From: Rhizobium sp. Q54
Lineage (GTDB): Bacteria > Pseudomonadota > Alphaproteobacteria > SHVZ01
Length of the DNA stretch: 64,000 nt
Assembly: GCA_945871425.1 (NCBI GenBank)
Contig: CAMBVS010000006.1
Location: 1 to 64,000, forward strand
Reading direction: 5' to 3'
Part shown: piece by piece, positions 34,340 through 41,997 of the stretch
Numbering within the stretch: position 1 is the stretch's first letter
How the letters are laid out: each line of letters begins with the position of its first letter
Translations under genes and position numbers: made by a program
Notes under the pieces: model-generated
What the model saw: the letters and a program-made list of their open reading frames with translations, nothing else
The model's database searches: none
Told to the model about the DNA's origin: nothing

Positions 34340-35436
34340 GCGCCGGTTCCGAGGTAGCGGCGCGCATAGCGGCGGGAGAGCCCGGTCAGCATCTGGTATC
34401 CGTTGGTTCCGGCGAGCTGTCCGAGCTCGTCCGGCGGCAGCTCCGGTCCCATCAGGACGATGGGCGTCCCCGGCCGGCATTCGGCCTCAGGCAGGTCGGT
34501 CACGTCGAAGGTCACGAGATCCATCGAGACGCGCCCCACCAGAGGGATCGGACGGCCGGCAATATATCCGCGGCCCCGGTTGGTGAGCGAGCGCAAATAC
34601 CCGTCGGCGTATCCGACGCCGACCGTGGCGATCCGGGTCATGCGATTCGCCCGCCATTGCGCGTTGTAGCCGACCGAGCGTCCGGCCGGGATTTCGCGCA
34701 CCGTCAGGATCTCGGCCTCGAGCTTTACCGTGGTCTTCATCGGATTCGGCGCGTGGTCGACCGGCGCCAGGCCGTACATCGCCGCGCCCGGACGGACCAG
34801 GTCGAAGTGATAGGCGGGGCCGAGGAAGATGCCGGCGGAGTTGGCGAGACTCGCCTTCGCTTTCGGCAGGCGGACGAGGGCATCGCGGAATCGGGCGAGC
34901 TGGGCTGGGTTGTCCGGGTCTGGCTGGACCTCGCCCGAGACCAGGTGGCTCATGATCCAGGCGAGCTCGATGCCGCCGAGGAGATCGGGCGAGGCGGCGA
35001 GGCCGGCGACCTCGGCTTCCGAGAGCCCGAGCCGGCTCATGCCGGTGTCGAGATGCAGGACCGCGCGTCCGCCGCCGGACTCACGCCAGCGGCGGAGCTG
35101 CTCCAGCGAGTTCAGAACCGGCGTCAGTCTGTGCCGGCGATGCTCGCCTTCGGTGCCGGGTCGTGGTCCTTCGAGGACGCCGATCTCCTGCGTGATCGCG
35201 CCGCGGAGCCGGATGCCTTCGTCCAGCGTGGCGACGAAGAAGACGCGGGCGCCGGCCCGGGCGAGGGCGGGGCCGACCTGCTCGGCGCCGAGGCCGTAGG
35301 CGTCCGCCTTCACCATCGCCGCGCAGTCGGCATGCGGGGCCGAGCGTGCGGCGAGCAGGCGCCAGTTGGCGGCGACGGCATCGAGGTCGACGGTGAGGAG
35401 GGCGCCGGCGTTCGCCGGCGTGTCAGCCGATCGCAT
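34336..35436 (-). CDS. alr: Alanine racemase
   Basis: A 366-residue PLP enzyme converting L- to D-alanine for peptidoglycan. The Schiff-base lysine is K43 in AMVKADAYGLGAEQV, HLDTGMSRLGL is a cofactor-domain motif, and SVGYNAQWRA carries the catalytic tyrosine in the C-terminal domain, followed by VGVGYADGYLRSL and PLVGRVSMDLVTFDV, all standard. The length is normal. The start ATG at 35436 overlaps the 3' end of dnaB by 14 bases, and its stop overlaps the mlaE start, so it is tightly embedded in the operon. The dnaB-alr-radA order is a known alphaproteobacterial arrangement. Cytoplasmic. Confidence 0.96.
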   Translation of the reverse strand: MRSADTPANAGALLTVDLDAVAANWRLLAARSAPHADCAAMVKADAYGLGAEQVGPALARAGARVFFVATLDEGIRLRGAITQEIGVLEGPRPGTEGEHRRHRLTPVLNSLEQLRRWRESGGGRAVLHLDTGMSRLGLSEAEVAGLAASPDLLGGIELAWIMSHLVSGEVQPDPDNPAQLARFRDALVRLPKAKASLANSAGIFLGPAYHFDLVRPGAAMYGLAPVDHAPNPMKTTVKLEAEILTVREIPAGRSVGYNAQWRANRMTRIATVGVGYADGYLRSLTNRGRGYIAGRPIPLVGRVSMDLVTFDVTDLPEAECRPGTPIVLMGPELPPDELGQLAGTNGYQMLTGLSRRYARRYLGTGA

Positions 35437-36937
35437 CGGCGATGTGGCCGGGCAGCGCGAGATTGGAGAACTTGGTGATCGCCCCCTCGAACTGCAGCCG
35501 CACGGTCCCCGTCGGTCCGTGCCGCTGCTTGCCGACGATCACTTCGGCGATGCCGTAGATCGCCTCGCCATGCGCCTTCCAGCGCTCGACGCGGTCGTGG
35601 AACTTGTCGTCGTGCTCGTCGGCGCGCCGAACCGGTTCCTCGCGCTTGTGATAATACTCCTCGCGGAAGATGAACATGACGACGTCGGCGTCCTGCTCGA
35701 TCGATCCGGACTCGCGGAGGTCCGCCAGCTGCGGGCGCTTGTCCTCGCGCTGCTCGACGGCACGGGAGAGCTGGGAGAGAGCCAGAACGGGCACGTTCAG
35801 CTCCTTGGCCACCGCCTTCAGCGACCTTGTGATGTCGGAGATTTCCTGGACGCGGTTCTCCGACTTGGTGCCGGCGGATCCCCGCAGAAGCTGAAGATAG
35901 TCGACGACGATCAGGTGGAGCCCGTGCTGGCGCTTAAGGCGCCGGGCGCGCGTCCGGAGCGCCGTCACCGTGATCGCCGGCGTATCGTCGATGAAGATCG
36001 GCGTGCGCTCCAGCCGCTGGCTCGCCTGGACCAGGCGGCGAAAATCGGCGTCGTTCATCTCGCCACGACGGATCTTCTCGCCCGACACCTCGATCTGTTC
36101 GGCGAGGATGCGCGTGGCGAGCTGCTCGGCCGACATTTCCAGCGAGAAGAAGGCGACGACGAAGCGTTCGGCTTCGGGATCGTCGACCGACTGGACGGCA
36201 GCATTGAAAGCGATGTTGGCGGCAAGCGCGGTCTTGCCCATCGCCGGCCTGGCCGCGAGCACGACCAGGTCGGAGGGATGGAGGCCGCCCAGCAGTTTGT
36301 CCATGTCGATCAGGCCGGTCGGCACGCCCGTCAGCTTGCCGTCGCGCTTGAAGGCCTTCTCGGCCATCTCGATGGCGGCGGTCAGCGCGTTGGCGAAGGG
36401 GAGGAAGCCGCGCTCGGCATTGTCGGTTTCAGCGAGTGTGAACAGCTTCTGCTCGGCGAGCTCGATCTGGTCCTTGCCCGAGGTCTCGAGCTCGTGCTTG
36501 TGGGCGTCGTTGACCATGTCCTCGCCGACGGCGATGAGCTGGCGGCGGAGGTAGAGGTCGTGGACGGTGCGGCCGTAGTCCTCGGCGTTGACGATGGCGA
36601 CGATCGAGGCGGCGAGCTTGACCAGGTACTGGGCGCCGCCGACCTCGTTGAGCCCGCCGTCCTGGTCGAACATCGACTTCAGCGTGACTGGGTTGGCGAT
36701 CTGGCCGCGGTCGACCAGCTTGCCGATTGCCTCGAAGATCCGGCCGTGAACGGGATTGGCGAAGTGGTCGGGGCGAAGGAAGTCGCCGACCCGCTCATAG
36801 GCCGCGTTGTTGACCAGGAGGGCGCCGAGAAGGCCCTGCTCGGCCTCGTAGTTGTGCGGCGGGGTGCGGTATCCGGCCGGCTGCGGCTCGCGGCGCGCTT
36901 CCGGCCAGGCGGCGGGAAGCGGCTTCAAGTCGGTCAC
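35423..36937 (-). CDS. dnaB: Replicative DNA helicase DnaB
   Basis: A hexameric helicase that unwinds DNA ahead of the fork. From the GTG at 36937 it has 504 residues. The N-terminal helical domain begins at PPHNYEAEQGLLGALLVNN. Walker A is AARPAMGKTALAANIAF, Walker B is LIVVDYLQLLRG, and PVLALSQLSRAVEQRED and DLRESGSIEQDADVVMFI are the following conserved loops. An ATG at 37045 would add 36 residues without DnaB character and would run across a perfect hairpin downstream of rplI, so I prefer the GTG, though its ribosome-binding site is weak. The 14-base overlap with alr implies coupling. A DnaA-box 9-mer lies upstream. Confidence 0.95.
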   Translation of the reverse strand: MTDLKPLPAAWPEARREPQPAGYRTPPHNYEAEQGLLGALLVNNAAYERVGDFLRPDHFANPVHGRIFEAIGKLVDRGQIANPVTLKSMFDQDGGLNEVGGAQYLVKLAASIVAIVNAEDYGRTVHDLYLRRQLIAVGEDMVNDAHKHELETSGKDQIELAEQKLFTLAETDNAERGFLPFANALTAAIEMAEKAFKRDGKLTGVPTGLIDMDKLLGGLHPSDLVVLAARPAMGKTALAANIAFNAAVQSVDDPEAERFVVAFFSLEMSAEQLATRILAEQIEVSGEKIRRGEMNDADFRRLVQASQRLERTPIFIDDTPAITVTALRTRARRLKRQHGLHLIVVDYLQLLRGSAGTKSENRVQEISDITRSLKAVAKELNVPVLALSQLSRAVEQREDKRPQLADLRESGSIEQDADVVMFIFREEYYHKREEPVRRADEHDDKFHDRVERWKAHGEAIYGIAEVIVGKQRHGPTGTVRLQFEGAITKFSNLALPGHIADAIG

Positions 36938-36999
36938 GCGCGGACCTGTCGGCGCAAGTCGGTCATTCGTTGAGCGCCCAAATCCCCCAAAACGCGCAA

Positions 37000-37094
37000 G
37001 GCCGGCATAGTCCCCCTTGGGGTGCCGGCCTCGCAACGCATTCATCGTTCCGACTCACAGCTTTGTTTTCCACAGGCTGTGAGTATGTGGATAA
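37000..37094 (-). promoter_or_regulatory. rplI-dnaB gap: two hairpins and a DnaA-box 9-mer
   Basis: The gap between rplI and dnaB contains a hairpin with perfect arms GGCCGGCA (37000-37007) and TGCCGGCC (37023-37030), extended by CCCC/GGGG inside. A second has perfect 9-base arms ACTCACAGC (37053-37061) and GCTGTGAGT (37076-37084). Beside the second, 37086-37094 on the - strand is TTATCCACA, an exact DnaA box, and its loop holds TTTTCCACA, one mismatch away. The first hairpin, with a TTTT nearby on the - strand, could end rplI transcription. The DnaA boxes could tie dnaB expression to DnaA. Confidence 0.5.
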
Positions 37095-37102
37095 GCGTCG
37101 GC

Positions 37103-37615
37103 TCAGCCGGCTTCCGGAGCCTCGGCGGCGGCAGTCTCGTCGGCCGCCCCCTGTTGGGCAGCGGCCTCCTCGGTCGAGCGCCCGACATTCACTGTCACCG
37201 TCACCCGGACCTCGGGGTGAAGGCCGATGCGGACGTCGTGAACGCCGAGCTCCTTGATCGGCTGGCCAAGCAGCACCTGGCTCTTCTGCACGGTGAAACC
37301 GGCGGTGGTGATCTCGTCGGCGATGTCGCGGAGCGTCACCGAGCCGTAGAGCGATCCGCTCTCGGCCGCCTGGCGGACAATGGTGATCTTGAGGCCGTTG
37401 AGCTTGGCCCCGACCTTCTCCGCCTCTTCCCGGCGCTTCAGGTTGTCGGCTTCGAGCTGCGTTCTCCGCTTCTCGAAGACCGAGAGGTTCTCCTTGGTGG
37501 CGCGGAGCGCCTTCTTCTTCGGCAAGAGGAAGTTGCGGGCGAAGCCCGGCTTCACCTTCACCACCTCGCCCATCTGGCCGAGGCTCTCGATGCGCTCCAA
37601 CAGGATGACGTCCAT
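37103..37615 (-). CDS. rplI: 50S ribosomal protein L9
   Basis: A 170-residue L9, which binds 23S rRNA at the base of the L1 stalk. The N-terminal domain is unmistakable: [20 protein letters not shown], then [21 protein letters not shown] long connecting helix ([19 protein letters not shown]) and the C-terminal domain with [16 protein letters not shown] follow, then a short Ala/Glu-rich tail (~20 residues) common in alphaproteobacteria. The start at 37615 is the conserved one. It lies 10 bases after the DUF2232 gene, in the rpsF-rpsR-DUF2232-rplI operon, and is followed by the hairpins before dnaB. Confidence 0.97.
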
Positions 37616-37625
37616 GGTTGGCTCC

Positions 37626-38561
37626 TCACTCCGCCGGGCCGACGGACGCCAGACGGCGACGCAGGCCCAGCCATTGATCGAAAAGACCCAGTCCCGCCAC
37701 CAGCGCCACCGGCCAGCCGAGCACGAGCATGGCGGCATAGGCAGCGACGAGGATGAAGGGCCTCTGGGGGGAAAACTTGCGGGCGACGGCGTGGACCACG
37801 CCGAGCCCCAGGAAAAAGAACGGCACCAGCAGGATCAGGAACAGGTTCCGGCCGAGAAAACCGACGCCGTCGGGACCGATCAGCGCCGCCGCCCCGGCGA
37901 TGCCGAGCGCCAGCGTGAGCAGCTGGGGAAGCTCGATATCGGCCAGCTCCGGCGTCGGGCGCAGATTGCGCCCGAAGCGGGCGAGCACGCCCTGGGCCAG
38001 GGCGGCGTTGACCGCCACCATCGCCAGCCAGGACATGATCACCGCCGCCGGGAACCACGGCACGATCGCGTCCAGGATGCGCCGGCGATCGCCTTCAGCC
38101 ATGTCCGCCATGAGCCGATCGACCGCCTGGCCGAGGAAGTCCCGGATTGCGGGCTCGATGCCGTCGGTGGCGAACTGCAGCGCCAAGCCGGCGACGATGA
38201 AGGCGCCGGCCCCCATCCACACCAGCCAGGCGACGAGAAGGCCGAGCGGATACCACTCGGTCTTGCCGTCGGCGTCGGTGCGGTTGAGGAGGGCCTTTCG
38301 GCCGACCACCATCACCGGAATGCCGCTGACGACGAGGAAAAGGCCGCCGGCGATGGCACCGCCCAACAGGGCGACCACCGCGGTGGCGCTTCCGGTCGCC
38401 GTCATGCCGGCCATTCCCCCCATCCCGAGCGCCACGGCGAAGAGCGGAAGCTGTGCCAGATAGGCAAGCAGCATCGCGCTCGGCTGCCCGAGGACGACCG
38501 AAATGTAGAGGAGGCCGCTGACGACGCCGGCGCCTGCCGCGATGAGCCAGAACCGAACCAT
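37626..38561 (-). CDS. DUF2232 family integral membrane protein
   Basis: A 311-residue protein with about eight to nine hydrophobic segments, e.g. [20 protein letters not shown] at the start and [20 protein letters not shown] with [15 protein letters not shown] at the end. The middle contains an amphipathic segment with [20 protein letters not shown]. This is the DUF2232 (YybS-like) family, commonly encoded between rpsR and rplI in alphaproteobacteria and near them in Bacillus. Its role is unknown; resemblance to energy-coupling-type membrane components (S-component-like helices) has been suggested for relatives, but the sequence gives no substrate. It is 30 bases after rpsR and 10 before rplI, so it is co-transcribed with ribosomal proteins. 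Confidence 0.88.
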
Positions 38562-38591
38562 TCCCGTTAGTCCTGCCTTACGCCTTCTGCC

Positions 38592-38897
38592 TTACTTGAT
38601 CACGTAAGGCATGAGCGCCAGGTAGCGCGAACGCTTGACCGCCTGGGCGAGCTCGCGCTGCTTCTTTGCCGACACCGCGGTGATGCGGCTCGGCACGATC
38701 TTGCCGCGCTCGGACACGAAGCGCTGGAGCAGCTTGATGTCCTTATAGTCGATCTTGGGCGCGTTCGGATGCGCGAACGGGCACGACTTCCGCCGGCGGA
38801 AGAAGGGCCGGCGTCCACCGCCCGCACCGCCACCCGCTCCGGCACCGCCGCGGCCTTCGCCGCCGCCGCCACCACCGCCCATGCGACCGCCGGTCAT
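38592..38897 (-). CDS. rpsR: 30S ribosomal protein S18 with glycine-rich N-terminal extension
   Basis: A 101-residue S18, longer than the ~75-80 usual. The core runs from [20 protein letters not shown] through [20 protein letters not shown] to [10 protein letters not shown]. About 33 residues before it are almost all glycine, alanine and arginine. S18 pairs with S6 on the platform of the small subunit. The ATG overlaps the rpsF stop by four bases (ATGA), so the two partners are made in step. The extension is encoded opposite, in sequence space, to a charged repeat tail on S6, so both have low-complexity ends that may have grown together. Confidence 0.96.
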
Positions 38898-39364
38898 GCG
38901 TCACCTCCACGAGTCTCGACGGCTGCCTCGTCCCGGCGGGGAGCCTCGTCGCGGCGCGGCCCGTCGTCGCGGCGCGGGCCGTCCTCGCGATCCCGGCGCC
39001 AGCCGCCGCGGTCACCCCGGTCTCCGCGATCACCGCGGTCGGACCGGCTCTGCATCATCGCCGAGGGCGCTTCCTCGAGGGTCTCGACCCGGACCGTGAG
39101 GTAGCGGATCACGTCCTCGTTGATGCGCATGTTGCGCTCGAGTTCGTGGATCGCCGCCGCCGGGGCGTCGATGTTGAGGAGCATGTAGTGCCCCTTGCGG
39201 TTCTTCTTGATCCGATATGAGAGCGACTTCAGGCCCCAATACTCTTTCTTGGTGACCTTGCCGCCATTCGCTTCAATAAGGGTGTTGAACGCGTCGGTCA
39301 GGGTCTCGACCTGGGTGGTCGAGACGTCCTGACGCGCGATGAACACGTTCTCGTAGAACGCCAC
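38894..39364 (-). CDS. rpsF: 30S ribosomal protein S6 with Arg/Asp-repeat C-terminal tail
   Basis: A 156-residue S6. The core (residues 1-~100) has [20 protein letters not shown], then [28 protein letters not shown] and [20 protein letters not shown]. The last ~50 residues are low-complexity repeats of DRGDRGDRG and [18 protein letters not shown], longer than in most S6. In E. coli S6 is modified by added glutamates at the tail, and here the tail is Arg/Asp instead. The start is a GTG at 39364 with AAGGAG nine bases upstream. A ~90-base leader with a plausible promoter precedes it. Expression may be autoregulated by the S6-S18 complex as in other bacteria. Confidence 0.95.
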
Positions 39365-39489
39365 CGTCGTCTCTCCTTCTGGCTGTTAGCGGCCCGGAGC
39401 CACCATGGCCTCCCGGACCTAGCCGGACCTTGAGGCCCGGCAAGGAGCTATGAGGGCGCGGACTATACACATGCCGCGGACGGGGGCAA
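39365..39489 (-). promoter_or_regulatory. rpsF operon promoter and leader
   Basis: On the - strand, TTGCCC (39489-39484) and TATAGT (39467-39462) with 16 bases between them form a good sigma-70-type promoter, giving a ~90-base leader before the GTG at 39364. The leader has a bulged hairpin, GGAG(G)CCA-TGG-TGGCTCC, at about 39396-39414, and C/G-rich flanks. Leaders of rpsF in many bacteria bind the S6-S18 complex through a hairpin with a CCG element. Whether this one does is not clear from sequence. Confidence 0.45.
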
Positions 39490-39512
39490 GCTCCGCGCGA
39501 ACAGGGGGCAGG

Positions 39513-40037
39513 ATGAGCGTTACCGAGCAGATCGCCGCAGTTCTCCAGGCCAAGGCAGAGGGGCTGGTAAAGAAATCGTCCAAGATTCTTTCGGAGATCA
39601 TGGACCCGGCCTTCGTCTATGTGAGTTCCGGCGGCAGGAGGGCCGAGAAACAAGCCTATATCGACCGGGTTTGCGCCGCGGCCGACTGGAGCTTCGGTCG
39701 CCAGCTCGTTGAAAATCTTGAGGTTGTGGACTTCGGAAGCTTCGCTGTCGCCACCATGACCCTGCACGACCAATTCGTCCACTCGAGCGGGGCCGTCGAG
39801 CGAACCTACCTGTCGCTCTGCGTCTTTCGGAAGGAAGGAGAACGTTGGCTCTGGGCCGCAGGCCAGACCATGACGCCGGACGTGCCGTTCACCGCCGACA
39901 TAGAGGAAGCCAAGAAGCACCTTTCATCGCTGTACGACCGAGCCGTCGCCGGCGAGGAGATCACCATTTCGATAGCGGGAACGCCGAAAGGGAAGTTGAT
40001 CCGCGCCGACGCCTCGATGAGCAAAGGCAGGGCGTGA
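39513..40037 (+). CDS. NTF2-like (DUF4440-type) domain fused to a Phd/YefM antitoxin-like motif
   Basis: A 174-residue protein that joins two unrelated pieces. Residues ~1-125 look like a DUF4440/SnoaL-type NTF2-like domain: KAEGLVKKSSKILSEIMDPA, FVYVSSGGRRAEKQAYIDRV and the C-terminal strand ERWLWAAGQTM. Residues 130-166, IEEAKKHLSSLYDRAVAGEE plus ITISIAGTPKGKLIRAD, match the Phd/YefM antitoxin pattern (eAK.hLs.Ll..v..GEei.I...Gkp.a.lv). No toxin gene (RelE, Doc, VapC) is next to it; an AEC transporter follows after 28 bases. It is divergent from rpsF. It could be an autoregulated DNA-binding sensor with an NTF2 ligand pocket, but this is inference. GGGGG 5 bases before the ATG may serve as the ribosome-binding site. 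Confidence 0.82.
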   Translation: MSVTEQIAAVLQAKAEGLVKKSSKILSEIMDPAFVYVSSGGRRAEKQAYIDRVCAAADWSFGRQLVENLEVVDFGSFAVATMTLHDQFVHSSGAVERTYLSLCVFRKEGERWLWAAGQTMTPDVPFTADIEEAKKHLSSLYDRAVAGEEITISIAGTPKGKLIRADASMSKGRA

Positions 40038-40065
40038 GCGCTTCCCCGGCTCTGGTTCTTTCCAA

Positions 40066-41004
40066 GTGATCTCGCTCCTCGAGATCGTGCTGCCGATCTT
40101 CGCCGTGGTCCTGGTCGGCTGGATCGTCGGGCGGTTCGAGATCATCAAGGGCGAGCGGGTCAACGGGCTCGCCGATTTCACCTTCTTCATCGCCATCCCG
40201 GCGCTGATGTTCCGCTCGGTGGTCCGCAACATCCGCTGGGAGACGGCGGACCCTGGCGTCCTCATCGTCTATTTCGGCTCCGGGCTCCTGGTCTATGCGA
40301 TCGCGATGGCCATCGGCCTGCGGATCTTCCGGACCACGTTCGAGGAGGCGGCGGTTCTCGGGCTCGCCTGCACCTTCGGCAACTCGGTCCAGCTCGGGAT
40401 TCCGATGGTGGTCCGCAGCTTCGGCGAGCACGGCCTGGTGCCGCTGATGCTGATCATCAGCTTCCACTCCCTCGTTCTGATCGGTCTGACGACGGTGCTG
40501 ATCGAGATCGCGCGCGGGCGCGGCGGCGGCGGCAGGGCGGCGGCGATCCAGTCGGCGAAGGGGACGGCGCGGAACCCGATCATCATCTCGATGATCGCCG
40601 GCCTCGCCATCGCCGCGTTCGACCTCGAGCTGCCGCGGATGGCGGACGACGTCCTGGCGCTGCTCGGTGCCGCCGGGATCCCGTGCGCGCTGTTCGCGCT
40701 CGGCGCCCAGCTTGCCCGCTTCAAGTTCGCCGGCTCGCTGGGGCCGACGGCGGTGATCCTGGCGCTCAAGCTGGCGGCGCTGCCGGCCGTCGTCTGGGCG
40801 CTCGCCCTGGCGTTCGGCCTCGCGCCCGAGGCGGAGTCGGTGGCGATCCTGGCCTCCGGTCTCCCGACCGGAGCCAACGTCTTCATCCTTGCCAACCGCT
40901 ACCTGGTCTACCAGGCGCCGGTGGTCTCCGCGGTGGTGGCCTCGACCGTGCTTTCGCTCGGCACCATCACCCTCCTGATCGCCTGGCTCGGCCCTCACCC
41001 TTGA
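40066..41004 (+). CDS. AEC (auxin efflux carrier) family transporter
   Basis: A 312-residue membrane protein with about ten helices. It starts EIVLPIFAVVLVGWIVGRFE and shows FFIAIPALMFRSVV, then the family-typical FGNSVQLGIPMV near residue 105 with LGLACT before it, and ASGLPTGANVFILANRY near the end, which carries the conserved glycine-asparagine pair of the transport fold. AEC members export or import auxin-like acids and malonate-type or dicarboxylate compounds; no substrate can be assigned. The start is a GTG at 40066, 28 bases after the fusion gene, so they may share a transcript. fabD follows 51 bases later, probably with its own promoter. Confidence 0.92.
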   Translation: MISLLEIVLPIFAVVLVGWIVGRFEIIKGERVNGLADFTFFIAIPALMFRSVVRNIRWETADPGVLIVYFGSGLLVYAIAMAIGLRIFRTTFEEAAVLGLACTFGNSVQLGIPMVVRSFGEHGLVPLMLIISFHSLVLIGLTTVLIEIARGRGGGGRAAAIQSAKGTARNPIIISMIAGLAIAAFDLELPRMADDVLALLGAAGIPCALFALGAQLARFKFAGSLGPTAVILALKLAALPAVVWALALAFGLAPEAESVAILASGLPTGANVFILANRYLVYQAPVVSAVVASTVLSLGTITLLIAWLGPHP

Positions 41005-41055
41005 CAGGACGCCGCCCCGTGTCATGACTCCCGCCCTTTTCGAGCGGGGACCAGC

Positions 41056-41997
41056 ATGACGCGCGCCTTCGTCTGTCCGGGCCAGGGCTCCCAGGCCGTC
41101 GGCATGGGAGTGGAGCTGGCCAAGGCCTTTCCGGTGGCCCGCGAGGTGTTCCAGGAGGTCGACGAGGCGCTGAAGCAGAGCCTGTCGAAGCTGATGGAGC
41201 AGGGGCCCGAAGGCGACCTGATCCTCACCGAGAACGCCCAGCCGGCCCTGATGGCGGTGAGCGTCGCCGTGGTCCGCGTCATCGAGACGGAGAGCGGCAG
41301 GCGCCTGTCCGACCTGGCGTCCCACGTCGCCGGCCATTCGCTCGGCGAGTATTCGGCCTTGGCCGCCGCCGGCGCGCTTTCGGTGCCTGACGCCGCGCGC
41401 CTCCTCAAGCTTCGCGGCCAGTCGATGCAGAAGGCGGTGCCGGTGGGCGAGGGGGCGATGTGCGCCCTTCTCGGCGCCGATCTCGACCAGGCCCGCGCGC
41501 TTGCCGCCGAGGCCGCCCAGGGCCAGGTCTGCGACATCGGCAACGACAACGGCCCGGGCCAGGTGGTCCTCTCCGGCGCCAAGGCCGCCATCGACCGCGC
41601 CATCCAGCTGGCGCCGTCGAAGGGGATCAAGCGGGCGATCTCGCTTCCGGTCAGCGCGCCCTTCCACTCGGCATTGATGGCACCGGCCGCCGACGCGATG
41701 CAGGAGGCGCTGGCCAAGGTCGAGCTGAAGCAGCCGAGCGTGCCGGTCATCTCCAATGTCCGGGCCCAGCCCGTTTCCGACCCGGCCGAGATCAAGCGCC
41801 TGCTGGTGAGCCAAGTGACGGGCCTGGTCCGTTGGCGCGAATGCGTGCTGGCCATGGTCGAGCACGGCGTCACCAAGGAGATCGAGGTCGGCGTCGGCAA
41901 GGTGCTGACCGGCCTCGCCAAGCGCATCCACAAGGATCTCGACGCTCTCTCCGTGCACACGCCGGCCGAGGTCGAGGCGTTCCTGAAGACGGTTTAG
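41056..41997 (+). CDS. fabD: Malonyl-CoA-ACP transacylase
   Basis: A 313-residue FabD, transferring malonyl groups from CoA to acyl carrier protein in fatty acid synthesis. The start MTRAFVCPGQGSQAVGMG is diagnostic. The active-site serine is S95 in VAGHSLGEYSALAAAGAL, and the catalytic histidine is in SAPFHSALMAP. QTLEV-type helices follow and the C-terminus has EIEVGVGKVLTGLAKRI. The gene is followed 12 bases later by fabG. A TTGACA at 41001 lies in the upstream gap, but has no good -10 partner. The fabD-fabG-acpP-fabF-mltG order is the usual one, and the first gene of the cluster here. Confidence 0.97.
   Translation: MTRAFVCPGQGSQAVGMGVELAKAFPVAREVFQEVDEALKQSLSKLMEQGPEGDLILTENAQPALMAVSVAVVRVIETESGRRLSDLASHVAGHSLGEYSALAAAGALSVPDAARLLKLRGQSMQKAVPVGEGAMCALLGADLDQARALAAEAAQGQVCDIGNDNGPGQVVLSGAKAAIDRAIQLAPSKGIKRAISLPVSAPFHSALMAPAADAMQEALAKVELKQPSVPVISNVRAQPVSDPAEIKRLLVSQVTGLVRWRECVLAMVEHGVTKEIEVGVGKVLTGLAKRIHKDLDALSVHTPAEVEAFLKTV

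Follow-up and report, generated by a model that had tools for sequence, protein, structure and literature searches.

An NTF2-like protein with a half-antitoxin tail: very probably the scar of a deleted phd–PIN module in two species of one genus

How does a protein with an NTF2-like domain come to end in part of an antitoxin, with no toxin gene beside it? This question is raised by a gene in the first 64,000 nucleotides of contig CAMBVS010000006.1 of Rhizobium sp. Q54 (assembly GCA_945871425.1), the whole of which we call the window. Its genome is denoted G000, and G000 to G005 are six genomes of the genus. The gene, a fused coding sequence for 174 amino acids, occupies positions 39513..40037 of the plus strand, and its ATG lines up with the NTF2 gene starts of four congeners. 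Residues 1–124 (39513..39884, plus strand) form an NTF2-like DUF4440 domain, as identified by a profile match to residues 7–113 (PF14534, 35.3 bits, E = 1.7e-8, exceeding the cut-off of 25.2) and by the congener orthologues, to which the domain is 83, 79, 76, and 66% identical in G001, G002, G005, and G003, respectively. The fusion junction was placed by DNA alignment at about residues 122–129 (39876..39899, plus strand). It is followed by a Phd/YefM-like segment, residues 130–166 (39900..40010, plus strand), which comprises a helix and a beta-hairpin with an altered strand 1 and lacks the C-terminal toxin-binding half. Residues 167–174 and the stop codon (40011..40037, plus strand) show no visible constraint and no clear derivation from Phd. 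A preliminary description had assigned the open reading frame these coordinates and these two segments, and both assignments hold.

The two parts of the protein were also scored separately. In contrast to the DUF4440 domain, the Phd/YefM segment stayed under the cut-off of 29.8 bits of its Pfam profile, PF02604, which matched residues 130–166 of the whole protein with 20.1 bits (E = 5.6e-4) and the tail alone with 23.1 bits (E = 6.4e-5). With the NCBIfam profile TIGR01552 (phd_fam, cut-off 20.8), the tail alone scored 22.8 bits, above the cut-off, and the whole protein 20.1 bits, below it. A Phd HMM of our own, built solely from 28 intact alphaproteobacterial Phd proteins, gave 35.5 bits for the G000 fusion and 25.5 bits for a second fusion in G002. 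Both values far exceed the best of 2000 shuffles (8.3 bits). Thus, the resemblance of the tail to Phd is not due to chance.

The fused gene lies between rpsF (38894..39364, minus strand), which is divergent, and a downstream gene for an AEC (Mem_trans) transporter (40066..41004, plus strand; PF03547, E = 3.4e-38). This slot, with rpsF and an NTF2 gene at one end and the AEC gene at the other, is kept in five of the six genomes, and both neighbours are the same in all five. No toxin gene adjoins the fused coding sequence, the next gene being that of the AEC transporter in G000 as well as in G002; neighbours and missing toxin had been correctly described. A survey of homologues found the fusion in G000 and G002; in G001, G003, and G005, the slot holds three separate genes, namely the NTF2 gene, a complete phd gene, and a PIN (VapC-type) toxin gene, followed by AEC. 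PHD and PIN pairs are type II toxin–antitoxin modules (Makarova 2009, PMC2701414); in G001, the two slot genes scored 42.1 bits (Phd, PF02604) and 58.2 bits (PIN domain). The NTF2 gene of the three-gene genomes stops at about residue 125–130, and the complete antitoxin of 83–84 amino acids starts about 60–70 bp past this stop. The DNA in between carries an exact, operator-like TTGACCAACTTGACCAACT repeat. Its 17-nt core, TTGACCAACTTGACCAA, occurs in exact form once per genome in G001, G003, and G005, at the slot, and is absent in exact form from the G000 and G002 genomes. The NTF2 gene has a relative in the sixth genome, G004, in different surroundings and without phd. According to the preliminary description, its reading would fail if residues 130–166 merely closed the NTF2 fold as its final helix. 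The tail is instead Phd-derived, since other NTF2 homologues stop at about residue 128 and three congeners encode a complete Phd in a separate, adjacent gene.

Alignment of the DNA revealed that G000 and G002 have two gaps at matching places. Just after base 39880, they lack about 70–74 bp that in the three-gene genomes contain the stop codon of NTF2, the operator-like repeat, and the start of phd. Further on, all of the PIN toxin gene is missing along with the 3′ half of phd; where G001, G005, and G003 have about 500 bp, a scar remains up to the AEC start (40038..40065, plus strand). No PIN-gene remnant scored consistently above shuffled controls in the 55-nt scar. The two species, at 78% protein identity, have both junctions in common. 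Judging from these alignments, the fusion is very probably the scar of a deleted phd–PIN module, common to the two species. The ancestral slot between rpsF and AEC would have held the NTF2 gene, phd, and the PIN toxin gene. In the line leading to G000 and G002, the phd start would have been deleted together with the NTF2 stop and the operator-like repeat that precede it, so that NTF2 came to be read in frame with the first ~40 residues of Phd. Either this same event or a further deletion would have taken the toxin-binding half of Phd together with the whole toxin gene. Since the toxin was lost, loss of the antitoxin would have been harmless, and the remaining Phd core could have been captured by the NTF2 protein once toxin loss had freed the antitoxin.

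In the NTF2/AEC block, divergence is greatest for G003, a three-gene genome, which suits a fusion that is the derived state. The flanking trees conflict: the dnaB side groups G000, G002, and G003, and AEC supports G001 with G005 and leaves the rest open. G000 and G002 were not recovered as supported sisters, and the locus is a mosaic; the conflict indicates that recombination occurred. For this reason, we gave up the attempt to prove a single deletion from a simple species tree, and the single-event reading rests on the common junctions rather than on clade support. The tail has 42–54% identity with the local Phd proteins and 54% with a Phd at G000:C47, so that the donor is identified by its position and not by its sequence. 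This second Phd belongs to a complete, close phd–PIN pair kept in the window's genome (L002/L020, G000:C47:2358-2974, minus strand). As separate observations on the surroundings, the trees of dnaB/rplI/DUF2232, NTF2/AEC, and fabD disagree (window 35423-41997 and L021-L024), and the AEC–fabD distance varies, the two genes being adjacent in G000 and G003 and roughly 2.8–2.9 kb further apart in G001, G002, and G005. Together, these point to recombination and to gene gain or loss around the locus.

To judge what the tail has kept, we aligned it with the 28 intact relatives. The helix and hairpin core is retained, including the A, K, L, L, G, E, I, G, P, and L positions, and K134 occupies the place of R10 in YefM. 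Position 154, which corresponds in the alignment to R31 of YefM from E. coli (MG1655 sequence), is I in G000 and V in G002, whereas all 28 intact relatives have R or K there. Position 129 is D, compared with N in 25 of the 28, and the V-N of strand 1 of intact Phd has become A-D in the fusions. R10 and R31 are both reported to be essential for DNA binding by YefM2–YoeB (PMC4803016). The toxin-binding C-terminal half, with the consensus GG.KGKIWIADDFDEPLPDDIL..FEG in relatives and present in G001, G003, and G005, is absent from the fusion. A structural model of the tail (pLDDT 86), which was built on an alignment of Phd proteins and is therefore partly circular, shows the helix and the hairpin, with strand 1 unformed. 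Its ten best PDB matches are all Phd-fold antitoxins, headed by the N-terminal domains of M. tuberculosis VapB46 (6jqy) and P1 Phd (4zlx, 3hs2), with TM scores of 0.61–0.71 but weak E-values, above 1. The full-length model is poor (pLDDT 54) and shows only that the tail follows the last NTF2 strand. Having lost the toxin-binding half, the tail cannot, to go by its sequence, act as an ordinary antitoxin. A Phd-type repressor role appears unlikely because the basic residue equivalent to R31 has been replaced. The fused protein would neither neutralise a toxin nor, probably, bind Phd operators.

Is the tail maintained, or is it drifting? The two fusions are the only ones that exist for selection tests. 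Their tails differ at 9 synonymous and 13 nonsynonymous codons, giving a dN/dS of about 0.25–0.37 with P = 0.09, and the codon counts of the tail alone are weak evidence of selection. The kind of change is more telling. Nearly all of the ten differences between G000 and G002 within residues 130–166 are conservative; in a BLOSUM simulation, the probability was 0.0003 for the mean score of the changed residues and 0.0009 for the total score. The same simulation gave no such signal for residues 167–174 or for the two other reading frames. Moreover, the tail is without stops or indels over 50 codons at 17% nucleotide divergence. These results, from several tests on one sequence pair, are suggestive of a maintained Phd core. 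They bear on the strongest alternative, namely that the tail is a functionless leftover of the deleted module that the NTF2 protein tolerates. Such a neutral remnant agrees with the junction and the missing toxin, which are what a deletion leaves, with a nonsynonymous count not significantly below neutral expectation (P = 0.09), and with the G002 tail, which has drifted below PF02604 detection. The conservative changes, a pattern seen only in the Phd core and only in the coding frame (P of about 0.001 or less), and the 50 uninterrupted codons speak against it. We regard a tail that does nothing as rather unlikely.

Our preferred reading of the function is that the protein is an NTF2-family small-molecule-binding or enzyme-like protein to whose C-terminus the retained Phd core adds an appendage for structure or dimerisation, a proposal to which we give an even chance. 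Origin and function taken together, i.e. a deletion scar whose Phd core has been exapted in an NTF2 protein, make up an account that we hold to be somewhat more probable than its negation. It is unlikely that the Phd core, exapted after toxin loss, gives the protein a new property, in the most interesting case that of a ligand-dependent DNA-binding or heterodimerising regulator; its DNA specificity would be changed, the R31 and N positions being altered and not simply lost.

A small-molecule-sensing repressor had been proposed in the preliminary description. The NTF2 domain would bind a small molecule and the Phd part would bind DNA, perhaps the gene's own promoter or that of rpsF. The domain content fits this proposal, as do the retained K134 and the role of the N-terminal domain of Phd proteins in DNA binding and dimerisation (PMC4803016). 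The I or V at the R31 equivalent, the D in place of the conserved N in strand 1, and the absence of the module's exact operator-like repeat from the genome argue against it. Nor does the upstream DNA favour it. Five congeners have an identical block of ~39 nt upstream of rpsF (window 39437-39475), with differences of ~20% nearby, but the block overlaps a promoter-like rpsF site, TTGCCC-16-TATAGT (39462..39489, minus strand), and contains its –10 element (TATAGT). The rpsF promoter explains this conservation, which is equally strong in congeners without the fusion. An RNA family search of the region gave no match near any family threshold. A repressor of this kind seems quite improbable.

The other role proposed earlier, that of an orphan antitoxin for a toxin encoded at a distance, here taken to be a PIN toxin, fares worse, as does that of a dominant-negative partner of an intact Phd such as the one at G000:C47. 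G000 does have seven PIN-domain matches, with one close Phd–PIN pair at C47, and the dimerisation core is kept. However, the deletion of the toxin-binding C-terminal half would preclude neutralisation in the known way. G002, moreover, has the fusion but no close PIN-toxin relative; a close intact Phd of the same family was not found there, and the one strong PF02604 match elsewhere in that genome lies on C203, which leaves the G002 fusion without an obvious partner. We consider both roles very improbable. Finally, an assembly artefact, conceivable since the G000 and G002 assemblies are fragmented and G002 is labelled a MAG, is in practice ruled out because two species at 78% protein identity have both junctions in common.

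How widespread is the fusion? Searches of roughly 890 genomes with the protein or the NTF2 profile revealed no other NTF2–Phd fusion, none was found in plasmids, and a scan of GTDB contigs returned one record only, the G002 locus. Two candidates were rejected: G127 has an ordinary phd–PIN pair behind an ABC transporter gene, and the long frame in G204 arises where masked N connects a phd gene to a PIN gene. Among the papers searched, none on a DUF4440/NTF2–Phd fusion was found. The earlier statement that this domain order is not a described family is supported by these searches, and we conclude that the fusion is of restricted distribution and ordinary origin. In G000, an NTF2 paralogue with 64% identity is fused to a BD-FAE/alpha-beta hydrolase (L015, G000:C23:10447-10827, minus strand, in a frame of about 422 amino acids); the same NTF2 family has therefore been joined to another domain, too.

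Compared with Phd/YefM–PIN modules (PMC2701414), the fusion has a tail from the antitoxin N-terminal core, and the complete pair occupies the slot of three congeners. It differs in having neither toxin nor toxin-binding half, in its altered strand 1 and lost R31 equivalent, and in its attachment to the end of an NTF2 domain. Solo antitoxins are abundant and well documented, and other roles, e.g. in regulation, have been proposed for them (PMC2701414; PMC3874152). Like them, the fusion is an antitoxin homologue without a linked toxin; unlike them, it is half an antitoxin inside another protein, with a history of toxin loss that is visible in relatives. With DUF4440/SnoaL-like NTF2-fold proteins (PF14534; PDB 3ksp), it has in common a complete NTF2-like domain (residues 7–113), to which it adds the C-terminal Phd-derived extension.

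Both states of the locus occur within one genus, the complete phd–PIN module in three species and what appears to be a captured half-antitoxin in two. If the proposed origin is correct, they would illustrate a concrete route from a selfish module to a domain of a host protein. It does not follow, then, from a Phd match in a fused protein that the protein acts as an antitoxin or a repressor.
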